Origin: a virus
IMG/VR virus record: IMGVR_UViG_3300021368_000027
Coordinates: 1 to 56,299 of that record
Length of the DNA: 56,299 nt
Reading direction: 5' to 3' (one strand)
Made by a program: the position numbers and the translations under genes. Below, piece by piece: positions 41,782 through 52,769 of the stretch. The notes beneath the pieces are model-generated. The model was not told the origin of the DNA. It saw nothing but the letters and a program-made list of their open reading frames with translations, and made no database searches. How positions within the stretch are numbered: position 1 is the first letter of the stretch; each line of letters opens with the position of its first letter.

Positions 41782-42960
41782 TCACGATGCGTTTCCTGAT
41801 GATCCTGCGCTAAGAAAATGGGCTACAACCAAGTCTCCATGATCTGTAGCATTTCCAGTTGTTTGTATTGTAACTCTGTCTATTACATTACTAAAAGATG
41901 TACCTGTTCCTACTTGACCACCTTGCCTACAAGCGTAGGTTCCATCACTAGTTGCAGAAGGATGATCTCCTCGTTCTGTCAAGTCACCAAAGTCTGTAGC
42001 ATTTCCAGTAGTAGCTATAGTAACATATTGCATCCTTGGTGTTCTTGCATAGGTTTCTGAGGAGTCAGTACTTCTTCCTGTAAATGTCATAGCTCTAGTG
42101 TCATCTCCTGCCCCTGCATGTTGCTCTGTAGGGCTTATAAGATCCCCAAAATCCGTAGTATTTCCTGTGGTTGCGATTGTAATATATTGGATTTCGTTTA
42201 GTCTAGAACCTGTAGTGCCTCCCATAATAACACCTCTAGTGGCATTAGCCCATCCAGCCAAACGCTCTATAGTACCACTCAGATCTCCAAAGTCCGTACC
42301 GTTACCAAGTGTATCTATAGTATTATATTCCATTTCATTAATTTTAACAAAAGATCCGCTAACGCTTGACCTTCCTCCAGTAGTAACAGCCCTAGAAGAG
42401 TCGCTTAAAGTATCATGATAATATCTAGCAGTAATTAAATCTCCAAAATCTTGAGCATTACCAGTAGTTGCTGTTGTAATGTAATCTATAGAATTTTTTA
42501 TAGTATTACTACCAGTACCATTATTTCCTGCAGTGATAATTACTCTACTACCATTAGAAGCTGCTGCTGGACCTACTGATCTAGCTGATAGATCTCCAAA
42601 ATCTGTACCGTTACCTGCTGTGGGTATAGAGTAATACTCTATAGAATCACCGTCAGTTGAACTACCTCCTTTACCAGCACGAATACCTCTTGCTCCGTAT
42701 CTAGAAGGGGTGCTGCCACTACCACTACCTATCAAAGTCTGCCACGCTCCGTTAGCATATACTTTGTACTCATTAGTATCAGAGTTCCACCATGTGTCAC
42801 CATTAGCAGGACTAGTTGGGTCACCGTCTGAATCAGTATTTGTGTGATGAGTAAAACCTGAAAGCCCACTATCAGCACCTGCAATCGTAAAGCCATTAGT
42901 AAAGTTAGGTGAACCATTTCCTATTCTGTCTGTTATCTTTGTTATCTCAACTTTACTCAT
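41782..42960 (-). CDS. Kelch-like repeat tail protein
   Basis: 392 residues. N-terminal MSKVEITKITDRIGNGSPNF and a short WWNSDTNEYKVYANGAWQTL module (chip-like fibre attachment). Then about six repeats of 45-50 residues with the pattern (S/T)RA.T.GG...-I.Y.TI.T.GN..DFGDL, ending TGNATDHGDLV...GSSGNAS. The repeats look like Kelch/beta-propeller blades, suggesting a receptor-binding propeller. Two other genes in this window carry the same repeat. Overlaps the 93-residue gene by 4 nt (ATGA). Confidence 0.7.
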   Translation of the reverse strand: MSKVEITKITDRIGNGSPNFTNGFTIAGADSGLSGFTHHTNTDSDGDPTSPANGDTWWNSDTNEYKVYANGAWQTLIGSGSGSTPSRYGARGIRAGKGGSSTDGDSIEYYSIPTAGNGTDFGDLSARSVGPAAASNGSRVIITAGNNGTGSNTIKNSIDYITTATTGNAQDFGDLITARYYHDTLSDSSRAVTTGGRSSVSGSFVKINEMEYNTIDTLGNGTDFGDLSGTIERLAGWANATRGVIMGGTTGSRLNEIQYITIATTGNTTDFGDLISPTEQHAGAGDDTRAMTFTGRSTDSSETYARTPRMQYVTIATTGNATDFGDLTERGDHPSATSDGTYACRQGGQVGTGTSFSNVIDRVTIQTTGNATDHGDLVVAHFLSAGSSGNAS

Positions 42961-43238
42961 GACGCTGATCCTGATGTACTACTCATTGATTGAAAACCAG
43001 TATTTCCAATATCCCCAAAGTCTGTGGCATTTCCTGGGGTATCTATAGTAACATATTCTATTGTGTTTACCATGTATCCATTACCACTACCTTCGCTACC
43101 ACCAGCGCTAACTATAGCACGTGTTAGGTTACTAGTTGATGTTATTCTTTTTCTAGCAGCACTCAAGTCTCCAAAATCGGTAGCATTACCTGGTGTATCA
43201 AAAGCAGCGTAACCTATTGCATTAGTTCTAGTACCCAT
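42957..43238 (-). CDS. Kelch-like repeat protein, C-terminal part of a split gene
   Basis: 93 residues made of two repeats (IGYAAFDTPGNATDFGDL; IEYVTIDTPGNATDFGDI) with the usual C-terminal SGSAS. It begins in TAATG at the stop of the 296-residue Kelch-like gene and continues its repeat register exactly. One extra G in the 5-G tract just upstream would fuse the two into about 390 residues, the length of the neighbouring paralogue (392). Either a split gene, a programmed frameshift or a homopolymer error. Confidence 0.65.
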   Translation of the reverse strand: MGTRTNAIGYAAFDTPGNATDFGDLSAARKRITSTSNLTRAIVSAGGSEGSGNGYMVNTIEYVTIDTPGNATDFGDIGNTGFQSMSSTSGSAS

Positions 43239-44128
43239 TACGTATCTCCCCCTACATACAAGACTCTAGTAGCACTTCCTGTCATTCCAAAGTATTCTCT
43301 ACCATCATCCATATCGCCAAAATCTGTAGCGTTACCTGGTGTAGCTATTGTAATATAACTAACAGTATCTCTGAAGCCTCCTACGCCTGATGCATTACCA
43401 CCAGCAATTAAACCATATGTACTGTTTGCAGCACCTGCACATCCTTTACCATTCTCTGTAGCATCTCCAAAGTCTGTACCGTTTCCTAGAGTTGCTATCG
43501 TAACATACTCAATTCCGTTTGTATTAGCAACCGTAGTTACACCCCCACTAGTTAGATAACCTATTCCCATAGCCGTTACGCCGTAAGTACCATCACTAAA
43601 TCCTGCAGCAGAATATCTTGAATAGTATAGATCACCAAAATCTTGGGAGTTTCCTGTGGTTGCTATAGTAATATATTGATAATTTTCTTTTGTTACAGAT
43701 CCACCAGAAACTACTCCTCTAGTTCCATTGCTAAATGCACATGAGTTTTGAGTCTCATACAACATATCTCCAAAGTCTGTAGCGTTTCCAGGTGATGTTA
43801 TATCAAAGTAAGACATTTGATGATACGTACCGCCATCACCACCAGTCTGATATCCACCAAATATAACTGCTCTGTCACCAGAATAAGTACCACCACCACT
43901 ACTACCACCAGAACCAGTTAACTCTTTGAACTCTCCATCTATATATCTATATATCTTCTCGTTAGCACTATCCCACCAGAAGTCACCAGTCTCACCGTCT
44001 GTAGGTTGTGTCTCACTAGCTGTATATCCTTGTTCTACACCAGCGCCTCCTACCTTTAACTTATTAGGCATATCTATGGCGCTGGTAGCAGTCTCATGTT
44101 CTATTGTATCTACTTTTAAAGTACTCAT
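43238..44128 (-). CDS. Kelch-like repeat tail protein, N-terminal part of a split gene
   Basis: 296 residues. N-terminus STLKVDTIEHETATSAIDMP and GETGDFWWDSANEKIYRYID, the same attachment module as the other Kelch-like proteins. Then Kelch-like repeats (TRGVVSGGSVTKENYQYITI, ATTGNSQDFGDL). It stops mid-blade at ATRVLYVGGDT directly after a GGGGG tract (43248-43252). See the 93-residue continuation at 42957-43238. Confidence 0.7.
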   Translation of the reverse strand: MSTLKVDTIEHETATSAIDMPNKLKVGGAGVEQGYTASETQPTDGETGDFWWDSANEKIYRYIDGEFKELTGSGGSSGGGTYSGDRAVIFGGYQTGGDGGTYHQMSYFDITSPGNATDFGDMLYETQNSCAFSNGTRGVVSGGSVTKENYQYITIATTGNSQDFGDLYYSRYSAAGFSDGTYGVTAMGIGYLTSGGVTTVANTNGIEYVTIATLGNGTDFGDATENGKGCAGAANSTYGLIAGGNASGVGGFRDTVSYITIATPGNATDFGDMDDGREYFGMTGSATRVLYVGGDT

Positions 44129-46665: not shown

Positions 46666-48900
46666 CTATCCGAATACTATTGCCATTGCTATGGCTTTAC
46701 CTGTTGAGAACGTGGGTACTGTTGCTGTACCAACTCCAATTACATGACCATTAGAATCTACTGTAACATCTTGAATAAACGTAGTTCCTGAATTGTTTGA
46801 TGAGCCTTGATTTGAAATAATAGGGTGTGCTGTTAAATATCCTGCACTAGCATGATCTCCCCAACTATACGCTGTATCCCAATTAGAGGAATTATCTGTT
46901 GTAGTACTATAAGAGCCAGAGCCTGTACGTGTCATAATGCCGTTAGAGCTAAAGTCACCATCCATAACAGCACCAGCAGCAGCAACATTTGTTGCGTCTG
47001 TGACATCTGCTGATGTCTCTACACCATCTAATTTAGTCTTATCTGCAGCAGACATAAACCCATCTGCAGAGGTAGTAGCATTAGCTGCAGTAGCACTAAT
47101 TGTAATATCAGCAGATCCATCAAACGATGCAGAACCTGTAATATCACCACTTAATCCTATGCTTCTAGCAGTAGCTAATGTAGTTGCTGTAGTAGCATTA
47201 CCACTCACATTACCTGTAACATTACCAGTTAAGTTACCTTCTACGCTATCTAGTTTAAGTAAACCGAAAGACGTAGATGCGTCAGCTAAGTTTATTGCGC
47301 CTGATGGCGTGGGATCATACTCATCTAACAGTGTCCACTTATCTTCTGATACATCATAGAACAGACCCATATGAGTATATCCAACACCTGATGTACCAGT
47401 GTTTCTATTAGAAAAGAATCCTGTATCTACTAGTACTGGACCTGCTACACCTGTCCAAGTATCGTTTAATGTGTGGCCTGTAGTTGCACCAAACTTTACA
47501 GATATGTTATCTGCACTGTGTATCATTTGCTCGTTGCCAGTGATAGCATTACCAGTAGATATAGTAGTATTAAAGTTGTCTGTACTTACAGCAAATGTAT
47601 CTGGTGTGCCTGTACCATCAATCTTTACATAGTAGGTTGTAGAAGTTGTACCTGTAAAGTGTCCTGAAAAGAAAGCGTCATCTAAGCCTGTACCACTAAA
47701 AGTAGTATTAGCATCACCAATGGCATCACCTTCATTGGCACGATAGAAGGGCGCACCTGCAGTAACATCTGATGTACTTGTTGATGTAGTTGTACCCAAT
47801 ACAGATAAGTTACCACCTACAATAAGATCATCACCTATATGTGCATCTGTTCTGACTCTGAAGGAGTTAACTGAGTGGTTCTGTTGATTTATTAGTAGTA
47901 TACCATTTGTAGAATCAGAGTTAACTACCCACCCAAGGCACATAGGATAGTTAGGATAAGTTGGTGAAGCATTTTGTACAGCCCCAGGAGTTAATCCTAC
48001 AAAAAAGTTTGTACCTGCTGTAAGGCCACTAGTGTCTACTCCATGCAACTGTCCTGCAATAATACAGTAACCGTAGCTATTATTAGGTATGTCTGCTGCT
48101 GCTAAACCTTGTGCGGTGTATGCGTTAACATCTGTAGCGTCTGCTAAACCAACAGTAGGAACATCAAGAGAACCTGCTGTGTAGTTACCTGAGAAGTACA
48201 AGGGTTTACCTTTACCTATTGTAGCACCTGTACTATTGTATACACGTTGATGTTCTTCTAAGCCTAACTCATGTACAACATTCTGTGTATCTGAATAGTA
48301 ACTTAAAGTTTTAGTGCTAGTGTCATACCATACTCTACCCTCAGAAAAGGATGGTACTGACCCTTGACTTGTCATATCAATATGAGTGCCTACATTTACT
48401 TCACCTGTAGCCGTAGCATTAACAAAGCTTGGACTGTCCGTTGTAGCTAGTCCTTGATTTATGGCCTTTACTGCAGTTTCATCTGTTAACTCACTATCCA
48501 TAACAGCACCTGCTGCTTGGACATTTGTAGCATCTGTTACATCAGCGCTGGTTTCAATACCAGTTAATTTAGTTTGCTCTGCATCAGTAAAGGCGTTGGT
48601 GTCTGCGTTATTCTCGTAAGCAGTCTTTATCTCTGCATCTGTCTGGTCTGCAGTAGCAGCAGTCTCTATACCAGCTAGTTTAGTTTCTTCTGCTGTTGTA
48701 AAAGAAGCTGTAGTATTATCTAATACACTTGATTGTGTTTGTGCGCCAAGAGTAGTTCTAGCAGTACCTGCATCTGAATCATCAAGAACTGTAGAAGCAA
48801 ATGCACTTATGGTGGTATTAGAAGGTACGTTTAACTCTTTTAAATCAGCTAAGTCTCCACCAGCAAGATCACCTAATAGTCTATTCTTTGATTTTGTCAT
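46666..48900 (-). CDS. Long tail fibre protein
   Basis: 744 residues. TTAEETKLAGIETAATADQ and TDAEQTKLTGIETSADVTDA repeats (helical-sheet shaft), DLIVGGNLSVLGTTTSTSTS, VEGNLTGNVTGNVSGNATTA shaft repeats, then SADGFMSAADKTKLDGVETS and a C-terminal beta domain (TVDSNGHVIGVGTATVPTF). Typical long, trimeric tail fibre with no S74 chaperone of its own. Start overlaps the upstream Kelch-cupredoxin gene (ATGA). Confidence 0.75.
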   Translation of the reverse strand: MTKSKNRLLGDLAGGDLADLKELNVPSNTTISAFASTVLDDSDAGTARTTLGAQTQSSVLDNTTASFTTAEETKLAGIETAATADQTDAEIKTAYENNADTNAFTDAEQTKLTGIETSADVTDATNVQAAGAVMDSELTDETAVKAINQGLATTDSPSFVNATATGEVNVGTHIDMTSQGSVPSFSEGRVWYDTSTKTLSYYSDTQNVVHELGLEEHQRVYNSTGATIGKGKPLYFSGNYTAGSLDVPTVGLADATDVNAYTAQGLAAADIPNNSYGYCIIAGQLHGVDTSGLTAGTNFFVGLTPGAVQNASPTYPNYPMCLGWVVNSDSTNGILLINQQNHSVNSFRVRTDAHIGDDLIVGGNLSVLGTTTSTSTSDVTAGAPFYRANEGDAIGDANTTFSGTGLDDAFFSGHFTGTTSTTYYVKIDGTGTPDTFAVSTDNFNTTISTGNAITGNEQMIHSADNISVKFGATTGHTLNDTWTGVAGPVLVDTGFFSNRNTGTSGVGYTHMGLFYDVSEDKWTLLDEYDPTPSGAINLADASTSFGLLKLDSVEGNLTGNVTGNVSGNATTATTLATARSIGLSGDITGSASFDGSADITISATAANATTSADGFMSAADKTKLDGVETSADVTDATNVAAAGAVMDGDFSSNGIMTRTGSGSYSTTTDNSSNWDTAYSWGDHASAGYLTAHPIISNQGSSNNSGTTFIQDVTVDSNGHVIGVGTATVPTFSTGKAIAMAIVFG

Positions 48901-50363
48901 GATGCGTTTCCTGATGCTCCATTTGGTCTTTCATTTGCCTGTGTCAAATCTCCATGATCTGTAGCATTGCCTGGAGTCTGAACAGTAACTCTGTCTATAT
49001 TTACTGAGATGCTTCCACCCACATTGCCTCCTGCAGCACATGCATATGTTCCATCTGATGAACCTGCTCTTTGGTCACCATAATTTGTTAAGTCTCCAAA
49101 ATCTGTAGAATTACCTGTTGTTTGTATTGTGATGTATTCTATAGCGTCTGACCAATTATTAGAGTTGCCAGAACCTGTACGTCTGCCTCCCATAATTAAC
49201 ATTCTAGTAGAATCTCCTGCGCCTTCTCCTCTTTTCCAAGTCGCTAAAAGATCTCCAAAGTCTGATGCATTGGCACTGCTTTGTATAGTAAAGTATTGTA
49301 TCTGATTGGTATCTGGAGATTCTCCTCCAGCAAGAACTCCTCTTGTAGCATCGTTCCATCCAGCCATATTAGCTCTATTTGCAGACAAAACAGCACCTAG
49401 ATCTGTAGCATTACCTGTGGTAGCTATCGTAATATACTCTATGTTAGATGTATAAGAACTACTAGTATCACTATAACCACCACACATACAACCTCTAGTA
49501 CTATCACTTACTGCTGTTGCTGTATATATAGATTCTGTCATATCACCAAAGTCTGTAGCATTACCAGGTGTAGAAACTGTTACATACTCTATGTTGTTAA
49601 TCGCCCCAAAACCGCTACCTGTTTTATATCCACCTGCTTTAAATGCTCTAGTACCACTTGATGCAGCACTAGCTCCATATTCAGCCTGTATTAAATCACC
49701 AAAGTCTGTGGCGTTACCAGTTGCAGATATATCATAATAGTCTATTGTGTTTGTGGCTGTAGCTGGAGAACTACTAGCTATATTACCACCAAACCTTAAT
49801 GCTCTAGTACCGCCCCAAGATATGCCTGAACTGCTACTACCACTACTAGTACCTATAGCTTTGAACTGACTATCTAAGTAGAACTTAACTTCACCATCCC
49901 ACAACATAGCACCATTATTAGGGTCAGACGTTGTAACGCTGGAACCCATACCATCACCATGTACGGTGCAATAATATGTCAATCCTGTTAAAGGTGCATC
50001 AGCAGCTACAGCAAAAGTAACAGTTGCACCAGCCGTACCAGCAGTGCCTGAAGATGTAACTCCTGTGGTGTAGGACGTACCAGCATTCTTGAAAGCTAAA
50101 GGGTGATTGGAATTACTAGAATCACTAACATCAAACGTGTATGTTACTCCTCTTAGTAATGTTATCGTTGGAGTAGTTACACCATCTATGGCATACTTAT
50201 TGCCTCCATCACTTACCACAGTAACTACTCTGGTAGTTGTGTCATATTGATATGTGTTTATTGTACTTAGTGCAGATCCTGAAGAGTGTGTAGGGGCTAC
50301 AGGAAAGTTAGGCTTACCTGTTCCAGCTACATTTACTATGTTATCTACTTTAATCTCTGTCAT
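48897..50363 (-). CDS. Cupredoxin-like plus Kelch-like tail protein
   Basis: 488 residues from the ATG at 50363. N-terminal MTEIKVDNIVNVAGTGKPNF. Residues about 45-145 are a cupredoxin-like sandwich: TITLLRGVTYTFDVSDSSNS, His87 (NHPLAF), then TYYCTVHGDGMGS with Cys132, His135 and Met139, a possible type-1 copper site (C-x2-H-x3-M). After a WDGEVKFYLDSQFKAIG attachment strand, about six Kelch-like blades run to the C-terminus and end TGNATDHGDL-type, GASGNAS. Probably a receptor-binding propeller with an extra cupredoxin domain; the metal site is only predicted. Confidence 0.7.
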   Translation of the reverse strand: MTEIKVDNIVNVAGTGKPNFPVAPTHSSGSALSTINTYQYDTTTRVVTVVSDGGNKYAIDGVTTPTITLLRGVTYTFDVSDSSNSNHPLAFKNAGTSYTTGVTSSGTAGTAGATVTFAVAADAPLTGLTYYCTVHGDGMGSSVTTSDPNNGAMLWDGEVKFYLDSQFKAIGTSSGSSSSGISWGGTRALRFGGNIASSSPATATNTIDYYDISATGNATDFGDLIQAEYGASAASSGTRAFKAGGYKTGSGFGAINNIEYVTVSTPGNATDFGDMTESIYTATAVSDSTRGCMCGGYSDTSSSYTSNIEYITIATTGNATDLGAVLSANRANMAGWNDATRGVLAGGESPDTNQIQYFTIQSSANASDFGDLLATWKRGEGAGDSTRMLIMGGRRTGSGNSNNWSDAIEYITIQTTGNSTDFGDLTNYGDQRAGSSDGTYACAAGGNVGGSISVNIDRVTVQTPGNATDHGDLTQANERPNGASGNAS

Positions 50364-51172
50364 TACAATACTACCCATCTAGCATTTGTAGGAACCGTAA
50401 CTGTTACACCATTGTTTATAGTAATAGGTCCAACCGACACGGCATTTTTATTTGTTGATAGTGTATAATCAGTTGTAACAGTTGTTTGATTCTCATGAAA
50501 TACTTGATCTGACCCACCACCAGTAGCTCCACCACCGCCGCCAGCAACATCACTAAAACTAAGAGTACCACTACCATTCGTTGTTAATGCTTGTCCACTA
50601 CTACCATCAGTACCTGGTAATGTAAAGGTGTTAACAAAAGTACTTAGGTTAGTATTACCTATGCCATATTCAACAACTTCTACTTTATCCCCTGCGACAA
50701 CAGCATCATCTAATACCACAGATGTACCATTAGTTGCGGTATAATCTCCCTGTAAAAGTTTTACACCATTAAGGAATACTTCAATAGTGCCTACTAAGTA
50801 ATTGACAGTAAAGGTTGTTTGCCCTGCAGTGGCTGTAAATTCGTTAACTGTAAAAGCGTTTGAAGATAGTATTAAGTCTGATGAACTAGGGCTTATAAAT
50901 ACTAATGTATTATTACCACTAAGATTTAGTAAAGCGTTAGTAGAACTAGAACTTAGATTACGAGAAAGAGTCGTACCCGAATGTGTGTACACTCCAGTGC
51001 CAATCTCCCACGCATTATTGTTTAGGTCTTCTATTACATATCTTACAGTATCGCCATCTACAACACCACCAGCATAAAATGTTTGATATCCTGGAAAAGC
51101 ACTACCTAAAGTAATAGTGCCTGTACCTGTACTTGAGGTATAGACTTTTACTCTGTCTGCTAGGACTACCAT
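50363..51172 (-). CDS. Tail fibre/adaptor-type virion protein
   Basis: 269 residues. N-terminal LADRVKVYTSSTGTGTITLG and THSGTTLSRNLSSSSTNALL, then NEFTATAGQTTFTVNYLVGT, IEVFLNGVKLLQGDYTATNG, VVLDDAVVAGDKVEVVEYG: a module common in proximal parts of phage fibres. C-terminal VSVGPITINNGVTVTVPTNA is a strand cap found in marine phage fibres. Stop overlaps the next gene's ATG. Confidence 0.65.
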   Translation of the reverse strand: MVVLADRVKVYTSSTGTGTITLGSAFPGYQTFYAGGVVDGDTVRYVIEDLNNNAWEIGTGVYTHSGTTLSRNLSSSSTNALLNLSGNNTLVFISPSSSDLILSSNAFTVNEFTATAGQTTFTVNYLVGTIEVFLNGVKLLQGDYTATNGTSVVLDDAVVAGDKVEVVEYGIGNTNLSTFVNTFTLPGTDGSSGQALTTNGSGTLSFSDVAGGGGGATGGGSDQVFHENQTTVTTDYTLSTNKNAVSVGPITINNGVTVTVPTNARWVVL

Positions 51173-51695: not shown

Positions 51696-52769
51696 TTAAG
51701 CAGCGTTGTAAATAGCTGACACCAATGCTTCTGGGCGTAGAATTTTACGTCCGTAAAGGTGCATACCACGTACAATGTCTGCAAATGAGTCAGGATCTCT
51801 GTAGTTCTCAACTTTGTTGATCTGCTCTGCAGATGCAACTGCGTCTTCTTGACCGCCCAAGATCACACCATAGTTTGCGTCTTGTGCTAATGAACCTGAT
51901 GTACCTGCACCTGTACCTTTTGCAGGTAAGTTGTTAGATACATAGACTCTGAAGCCGTGTAAGTTGTTAACAGCTAGACCGTTTTGTAGACCTGATCCAC
52001 CGTAGTCTGAGTTTAGAAGACGTGAGTCCTCATCCTTCAAGATCTCCATGAATACTGGATCAACAACTAACCAACGTCCACGTGACTCCACGTTTGCTAC
52101 GTCCATTACACGAGCCATACGAGCGATGACTGTTAGTGGTGATACAACGTCTGATGAAAGAGTTGTAGCACCTGGTAGACGTGCAGCTAGTGGGATTGAG
52201 TCACCAGTAGCGTAAGCTGTTGATGCAGAGTCTGCAGAACCTAATTGACCCATGTCAGTAGCATCTAATTGGTTAGCTTTTAAAAATTCACCGTTTAGAT
52301 TGTTTGCTGTCGGGTGCTGTGCAGTACCTGATACGGTAGTGATTAATGCACCTGATGAGTCATAACCTGACATGTACTGTAGTAAGTCTGCGTCCATTGC
52401 GTCAGCCATTTTGTATGCTGCTCTGTCTGCAGCTAGGCTTACGAAATCAACAGATGCAAATTGATCTTCGATGTCATCCATTTTAAAAGCAAAGTAGTTA
52501 GCTTTGTCGATGGTTAACTGGAAGTCACTGTCATCTAGGTCTTGGACAGAGATGGCTGTTTTACGCTCAAGAGCGTTGACTGTTACATCAGGCTCTTTCT
52601 GGATGCGTACAACATCCCCTTGATTGGCAATCTCTCCAAAGTAGGAGTTGTTTGTGATTGCGTTGGCAACTGCTGCTTTTCTTAAAGCAATCTGTGCCTG
52701 TTTGGAATAGATAATCGGGCTAAAATTACCGTCAAATCCTGTTTTGCCAGAGGCAACTGCTATAGCCAT
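51696..52769 (-). CDS. Major capsid protein
   Basis: 357 residues. Ala-rich N-terminus (ASGKTGFDGNFSPIIYSKQA), then NSYFGEIANQGDVVRIQKEP, ADLLQYMSGYDSSGALITTV, RWLVVDPVFMEILKDEDSRL, NNLHGFRVYVSNNLPAKGTG, GVILGGQEDAVASAEQINKV and a C-terminal KILRPEALVSAIYNAA. This is the HK97-fold P22-coat-like pattern of podovirus capsids. Flanked by the scaffold upstream and a hairpin downstream. Codon use here looks cleaner than elsewhere, as expected of a highly expressed gene (impression only). Confidence 0.85.
   Translation of the reverse strand: MAIAVASGKTGFDGNFSPIIYSKQAQIALRKAAVANAITNNSYFGEIANQGDVVRIQKEPDVTVNALERKTAISVQDLDDSDFQLTIDKANYFAFKMDDIEDQFASVDFVSLAADRAAYKMADAMDADLLQYMSGYDSSGALITTVSGTAQHPTANNLNGEFLKANQLDATDMGQLGSADSASTAYATGDSIPLAARLPGATTLSSDVVSPLTVIARMARVMDVANVESRGRWLVVDPVFMEILKDEDSRLLNSDYGGSGLQNGLAVNNLHGFRVYVSNNLPAKGTGAGTSGSLAQDANYGVILGGQEDAVASAEQINKVENYRDPDSFADIVRGMHLYGRKILRPEALVSAIYNAA

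Follow-up and report, generated by a model that had tools for sequence, protein, structure and literature searches.

The gene P0001, found in a virus record of 56,299 bases (this whole stretch of DNA is referred to here as the window), raises the question of why a phage tail fibre should contain a domain resembling a copper protein, and whether a metal is held there. The original prediction had proposed for this gene a cupredoxin-like domain with four possible copper ligands fused to Kelch-like blades, leaving it open whether the result would be a metal-binding or redox-active adhesin or a fold borrowed as a carbohydrate-binding sandwich.

The DNA polymerase encoded in the window is 71% identical to those of the Roseobacter phages CRP-207, CRP-2 and CRP-603 and 55% identical to that of Puniceispirillum phage HMO-2011, and the capsid protein shows 77-79% identity to CRP-2, CRP-603 and CRP-207 and 61% to HMO-2011. 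Judged by these identities, the source virus is an HMO-2011-type marine phage. P0001 is placed in a variable tail-fibre cassette after the capsid gene, as are the tail-fibre genes of CRP-2, CRP-603, CRP-207 and HMO-2011, and this position agrees with its matches to PHROG tail families in identifying it as a tail fibre. The genes concerned are:

51696..52769, minus strand: major capsid gene (PHROG 267), which locates the tail cassette
50363..51172, minus strand: upstream tail-cassette gene, overlapping the start of P0001 as TAATG
48897..50363, minus strand: tail-fibre gene P0001, an open reading frame whose translation of 488 residues matches PHROG tail-fibre profiles; predicted cupredoxin plus Kelch propeller
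42987..44128, minus strand: second sister Kelch fibre, without the cupredoxin, in two frames split near 43240
41782..42960, minus strand: sister Kelch fibre P0002, 46% identical over the repeats and without a match to the cupredoxin domain

An alternative start of P0001 at 50378 would give a version of 493 residues. At another locus, L092, an N-terminus similar to the product of the upstream gene and the cupredoxin are found within one open reading frame. The product of P0001 itself is laid out as follows:

50244..50363, minus strand: N-terminal stem, residues 1-40 (MTEIKVDNI...), 100% and 95% identical in the nearest relatives, loci L006 and L007 respectively
49914..50243, minus strand: predicted cupredoxin domain, residues 41-150 (AlphaFold2 model, PDB matches, plastocyanin profile similarity)
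49812..49913, minus strand: linker, residues 151-184, with the NGAMLWDGEVKFYLDSQFK motif, which has a counterpart in both sister fibres
48900..49811, minus strand: six-bladed Kelch propeller, residues 185-488 (AlphaFold2, structural matches to Kelch domains)

The propeller was modelled alone, from alignment A4; the full-length alignment A3, in which propeller rows were misplaced into the cupredoxin, was dropped. The model (pLDDT 92.4, pTM 0.90) predicts four-stranded blades arranged in a circle, as in the Kelch fold, and it superimposes on designed and human Kelch domains with Z about 38-39 over ~280 residues (rmsd about 2), so that the blades first noticed can be described as a six-bladed Kelch propeller. 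The curated Kelch model of Pfam gave no match to this part of P0001.

For residues 41-150, an AlphaFold2 model built from 63 sequences (alignment A1) predicts a Greek-key beta sandwich of nine strands with the cupredoxin fold (pLDDT 90.3, pTM 0.82). When this model was compared with the PDB using Foldseek, the 13 top matches were all cupredoxins, including nitrite reductase, rusticyanin and multicopper oxidase domains (E 3e-4 to 7.5e-3), led by a nitrite-reductase cupredoxin and rusticyanin (E 3e-4 to 9e-4); Ig-like matches were weaker and stood below them. A second structural comparison returned nearly exclusively small laccases, nitrite reductase and rusticyanin, with Z of 8.2-9.6, the match to rusticyanin 2cal covering 99 residues with Z 8.4 and rmsd 2.9. 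As a Z of about 8 can be middling, it is the consistency of the list, along with the ligands, that carries the argument for a cupredoxin. Moreover, the profile of the domain scored 30.6 against plastocyanin-family proteins from marine genomes, whereas 150 column shuffles of the same profile averaged 11.2 and never exceeded 18.9. In the plastocyanin alignment the Cys and the second His are in register and the first His is about two residues off.

This offset of the first His counts against the assignment, as does the lack of a Pfam cupredoxin match in P0001, whose domain matched no family in Pfam or NCBIfam. Among the relatives, 7 of 63 matched the plastocyanin/azurin family PF00127 weakly (best E 0.005) and eight family members gave a weak match to PF25489, the At5g54830-like family, which takes its name from a plant protein (best E 9e-5), P0001 being in neither group. 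A scan of six related phage contigs for the At5g54830 family gave no signal and its controls were silent too, which makes it uninformative. Sequence and profile matches to PDB entries were set aside as chance, since they were antibody chains found through the YYC-xx-H stretch, and plastocyanin appeared there with E 0.5.

The four residues named in the original prediction form a full type-1 set, and their numbering is right for the version of 488 residues:

50103..50105, minus strand: codon of His87, candidate copper ligand 1, in NHPLAF; invariant among the family copies, with the few exceptions given below
49968..49970, minus strand: codon of Cys132, candidate copper ligand 2, in YYC; likewise invariant, and the sole Cys of the domain
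49959..49961, minus strand: codon of His135, candidate copper ligand 3; likewise invariant
49947..49949, minus strand: codon of Met139, candidate axial ligand; likewise invariant, being Gln in one SAR86 copy

In the model, with the numbering of the modelled fragment, H50 (His87) lies directly before the strand 52-56, C95 (Cys132) ends the strand 91-95, and H98 (His135) and M102 (Met139) are on the loop preceding the strand 105-109. A His before a mid strand, with Cys, His and Met on the loop that follows the second-last strand, is the arrangement of type-1 copper sites. The set itself is that described for type-1 copper in PMC517927, from which a change of the axial Met to Gln is also known, in stellacyanin-type sites. 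In P0001 the order is His, then Cys-x2-His-x3-Met, and across the family both this loop length and Cys-x2-His-x2-Met are present.

Whether these ligands are conserved in related phages was among the checks suggested at the outset, and they are. Just seven columns of alignment A1 are invariant and four of them are the ligands. All four are kept in 256 of the 259 distinct full-length copies collected from all loci, which have a mean pairwise identity of about 48% and fall into 16 clusters at 50% identity. Of the three exceptions, one is a SAR86 copy which has lost His, Cys and His jointly, another has Gln in place of Met at the same position, and the third is probably misaligned. When copies were selected by a pattern in the N-terminal half of the domain (Y[TVI]FD[VQL]SD[SAN][ST]), so that the ligand region was not part of the selection, His87 was found in 93/93 and Cys132, His135 and Met139 each in 95/95. 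In addition, in a set of 94 distinct copies, almost all from this N-terminal scan, the ligand columns hold 94/94 of the Cys, 188/205 of the His and 94/109 of the Met residues of the domain. Chance does not account for the ligand set. Phage S-SM1 has intact copies in gp9 and in a baseplate wedge protein, and beside these it has degenerate ones (wedge protein, SSM1_102) from which both the His and the Cys motifs are gone. Ligands therefore tend to be lost together, the loss being all or nearly none.

This pattern bears on the suggestion of a simply borrowed fold, serving as a metal-free Ig-like or carbohydrate-binding spacer whose ligand residues are conserved for packing. Ig-like spacers are often used in phage tails, and Ig-like domains do occur further down the fold list. 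A sandwich of this kind would nevertheless be expected to have no conserved ligands, and four are conserved here. Because they persist at such low mean identity, with most other positions variable, and because the motif disappears as a group in the degenerate copies, we consider this reading very improbable. An Ig-like decoration was likewise rejected on the ligand conservation.

The domain is not restricted to this virus. Among cultured or sequenced phages a consensus query found it 489 times, spread over 360 records, all of them aquatic; these are mostly phages of Synechococcus and Prochlorococcus and other cyanophages, along with phages of Pelagibacter (SAR11) and Methylophilales (OM43) and marine viruses. 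A scan with a Syn1-type query gave 7 relatives only. According to their annotations, the proteins carrying the domain are tail fibres, baseplate wedge proteins, the gp9 baseplate connector or virion structural proteins, and PHROG tail families include members bearing it. The virion-structural label of cyanophage proteins comes in part from proteomics of S-SM1, S-PM2 and Syn9 virions, according to PMC3037559. The motif is kept in the isolates Baldr, Mosig, P-SSM2, S-TIM66, Syn1, P-HM1, Melnitz-3, Bellamy and ACG-2014d. Some of the matches labelled as genomes are probably phage contigs, L092 being an example. The observation of a cupredoxin-like domain with its ligand set is thus confirmed, and it reaches further than first noticed.

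It might be supposed that a host-derived plastocyanin, the auxiliary gene petE, was accidentally fused into a tail gene. Cyanophages do carry petE, as reported in PMC3037559, and in S-SM1 it is SSM1_117. The PetE of S-SM1, however, has a different sequence, with HNV and CGPHKGAGM loops, and gave no match to the tail-domain model although it was within the searched set. Moreover, the tail domain forms a large family of its own, which includes phages of non-photosynthetic hosts. An accidental fusion is hardly credible in the face of these differences.

Copies were also found in SAR86 and Prochlorococcus genomes, within giant open reading frames that combine RTX repeats with cadherin or Ig domains, and an archaeal protein with collagen repeats has the domain too. 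It therefore seems to be common to phage tails and to proteins of the cell surface.

The place of the domain within the fibre is informative. Both sister fibres have a short N-terminus, resembling the N-terminal stem of P0001, which is followed at once by the linker motif and the Kelch repeats, the cupredoxin being absent from between them. A cupredoxin profile search of the whole window found only the copy in P0001, with no match in either sister fibre, and the same search found no copy in the tail regions of the four nearest isolates, CRP-2, CRP-207, CRP-603 and HMO-2011. Since it is missing from these fibres and from those tail regions, we regard the cupredoxin as a module subject to gain and loss. 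In the nearest relatives, L006 and L007, it is 97% and 91% identical, against 53% and 40% for the propeller. The stem and cupredoxin are thus conserved where the propeller has diverged, which means that the cupredoxin travels with the stem and not with the variable tip. L007 has an additional repeat block ahead of its Kelch part. The proposed role as an adhesin consequently holds in part: P0001 is a tail fibre, and direct contact of the cupredoxin with a receptor is less likely than was implied, because the domain belongs to the conserved stem and not to the variable tip.

We propose that the domain is a copper-binding module, stiffened by its metal, which is built into fibre stems and baseplates, and we give this reading a probability of roughly 60%. 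In P0001 the cupredoxin would be an insertion separating the N-terminal stem from the linker to the Kelch propeller, and its ligand site would hold one metal ion, most likely copper. As phage proteins fold in the cytoplasm, the copper would be acquired late, from lysed cells or from seawater. The metal would close and stiffen the sandwich, turning it into a hard and long-lived spacer or surface-binding module of the stem, and the choice of host would be left to the variable Kelch propeller.

A more active part for the metal can also be imagined, namely a redox-active or copper-sensing module which aids adsorption by cycling between Cu(I) and Cu(II) at the host surface or by taking copper from host uptake proteins, the latter being a Trojan-horse idea transferred to copper. 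The type-1 ligand set is complete, with the axial Met included, and the occurrence of the domain in giant RTX/cadherin cell-surface proteins and in the archaeal collagen-repeat protein also speaks for it. In electron-transfer cupredoxins, however, the first His is usually followed by Asn, and this domain has Pro instead (residue 88 in P0001), or sometimes Gln in the family. Because of this Pro and of the location in stem and baseplate, electron transfer is possible but less likely. The domain is found in baseplate wedge proteins and the gp9 connector as well as in the conserved stem, away from the variable tip, and no partner protein is evident; a redox or sensing module is accordingly unlikely in our view. 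Iron-binding HxH motifs and a Trojan-horse hypothesis have been reported for marine phage tail fibres (PMC11705849), which lends such a module some support. A still bolder version, with working type-1 copper centres in the tails of ocean phages whose copper takes part in infection, either by switching redox state on attachment or by luring copper-binding proteins of the host surface, is distinctly doubtful.

The main rival metal is zinc. Two His and a Cys suit it, and zinc or another metal could occupy the His-Cys-His site in the host cytoplasm, where phage tail proteins fold and where zinc is more available than copper. P0001 begins with the MTEIKVDNI stem and not with a signal peptide, which fits this possibility. 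In that case the site for zinc or another ion would be purely structural and the virion would never bind copper. Type-1 copper nevertheless accounts better than zinc for the conserved Met and for how the ligands are spaced (His, then Cys-x2-His-x2/3-Met), and the one natural exchange of Met for Gln is again suited to the axial ligand of copper. We therefore regard a zinc site as a minor possibility.

If the stiffened copper-binding module is the right reading, the tails of many ocean phages may contain a bound metal, probably copper. With the sites filled, the phages of Synechococcus, Prochlorococcus, SAR11 and OM43 would carry copper, often at several sites per genome. Copper would then join the metals under discussion for the tails of marine phages, phages would count among the stores of protein-bound copper in seawater, and a new handle on the attachment of such phages would be gained. 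As cultured phages carry the domain, the proposal is testable now.

A search of open-access papers yielded no cupredoxin in a phage tail; automatic InterPro annotation may label some of these proteins. The propeller resembles the Kelch beta-propellers of Keap1, KLHL12 and KLHL17 in its six blades (Z about 38), with 10-16% identity, and its repeats have a GNATDFGD motif. The predicted fold of the tail domain and its order of ligands (His...Cys-x2-His-x2/3-Met) are like those of the type-1 cupredoxins plastocyanin, amicyanin, rusticyanin and the laccase and nitrite reductase domains, and its Cys and second His align with those of plastocyanins. It differs from all of these in being part of tail and baseplate proteins, in the Pro after the first His and in a Gly-rich metal loop. 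PetE is also phage-carried and has a copper protein fold, but it acts in infected cells as a separate protein bearing a signal peptide, whereas the tail domain belongs to structural proteins. The nearest precedent is the iron of the HxH motifs in tail fibres (T4 gp37; Alteromonas phage R22Y, PMC11705849), which likewise places metal sites in these structures; those sites are octahedral, made of His in a trimeric fibre, whereas the tail domain offers a candidate His-Cys-His-Met site within a single domain. The fold and the type of copper site are thus already known, and it is their setting in a phage tail that is new.

The second of the two sister Kelch fibres that accompany the cupredoxin-bearing tail-fibre gene P0001 is found in two pieces:

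Window 42961-44128, minus strand: second sister Kelch fibre, made up of ORF 43238-44128 and a continuation in another frame

A stop within TAATG near 43240 ends this ORF, and beyond it further Kelch repeats are read in a different frame. The break may represent a frameshift, an assembly error or a coupled pair.

A near relative of P0001 (locus L007) has an added segment, STDGTKMYVLD..., between the predicted cupredoxin domain and the Kelch propeller:

L007, 4303-6597: fibre gene with stem and cupredoxin as in P0001, then the extra repeat block, then the Kelch propeller

In SAR86 and Prochlorococcus genomes (L103/L196, L105, L102) the cupredoxin domain is placed inside giant ORFs of more than 2000 aa, which also carry RTX, cadherin and Ig repeats. 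The archaeal genome G015 (L212) contains a single long ORF with the variant THPF...YFCTVHSGM and a second, separate plastocyanin-type domain. A fold match to the cupredoxin domain was also obtained with a Marseillevirus-like protein (LCMAC201; BFVD A0A481YXP1, E 5.5e-5).

In phage S-SM1 (L393), intact cupredoxin copies adjoin degenerate ones in SSM1_104 and SSM1_102, from which the His and Cys ligand motifs are absent. A SAR86 copy (L096, aa 829-917) reads CQAHANQ, with Gln in place of the axial Met, a replacement likewise found in stellacyanin-type copper sites.
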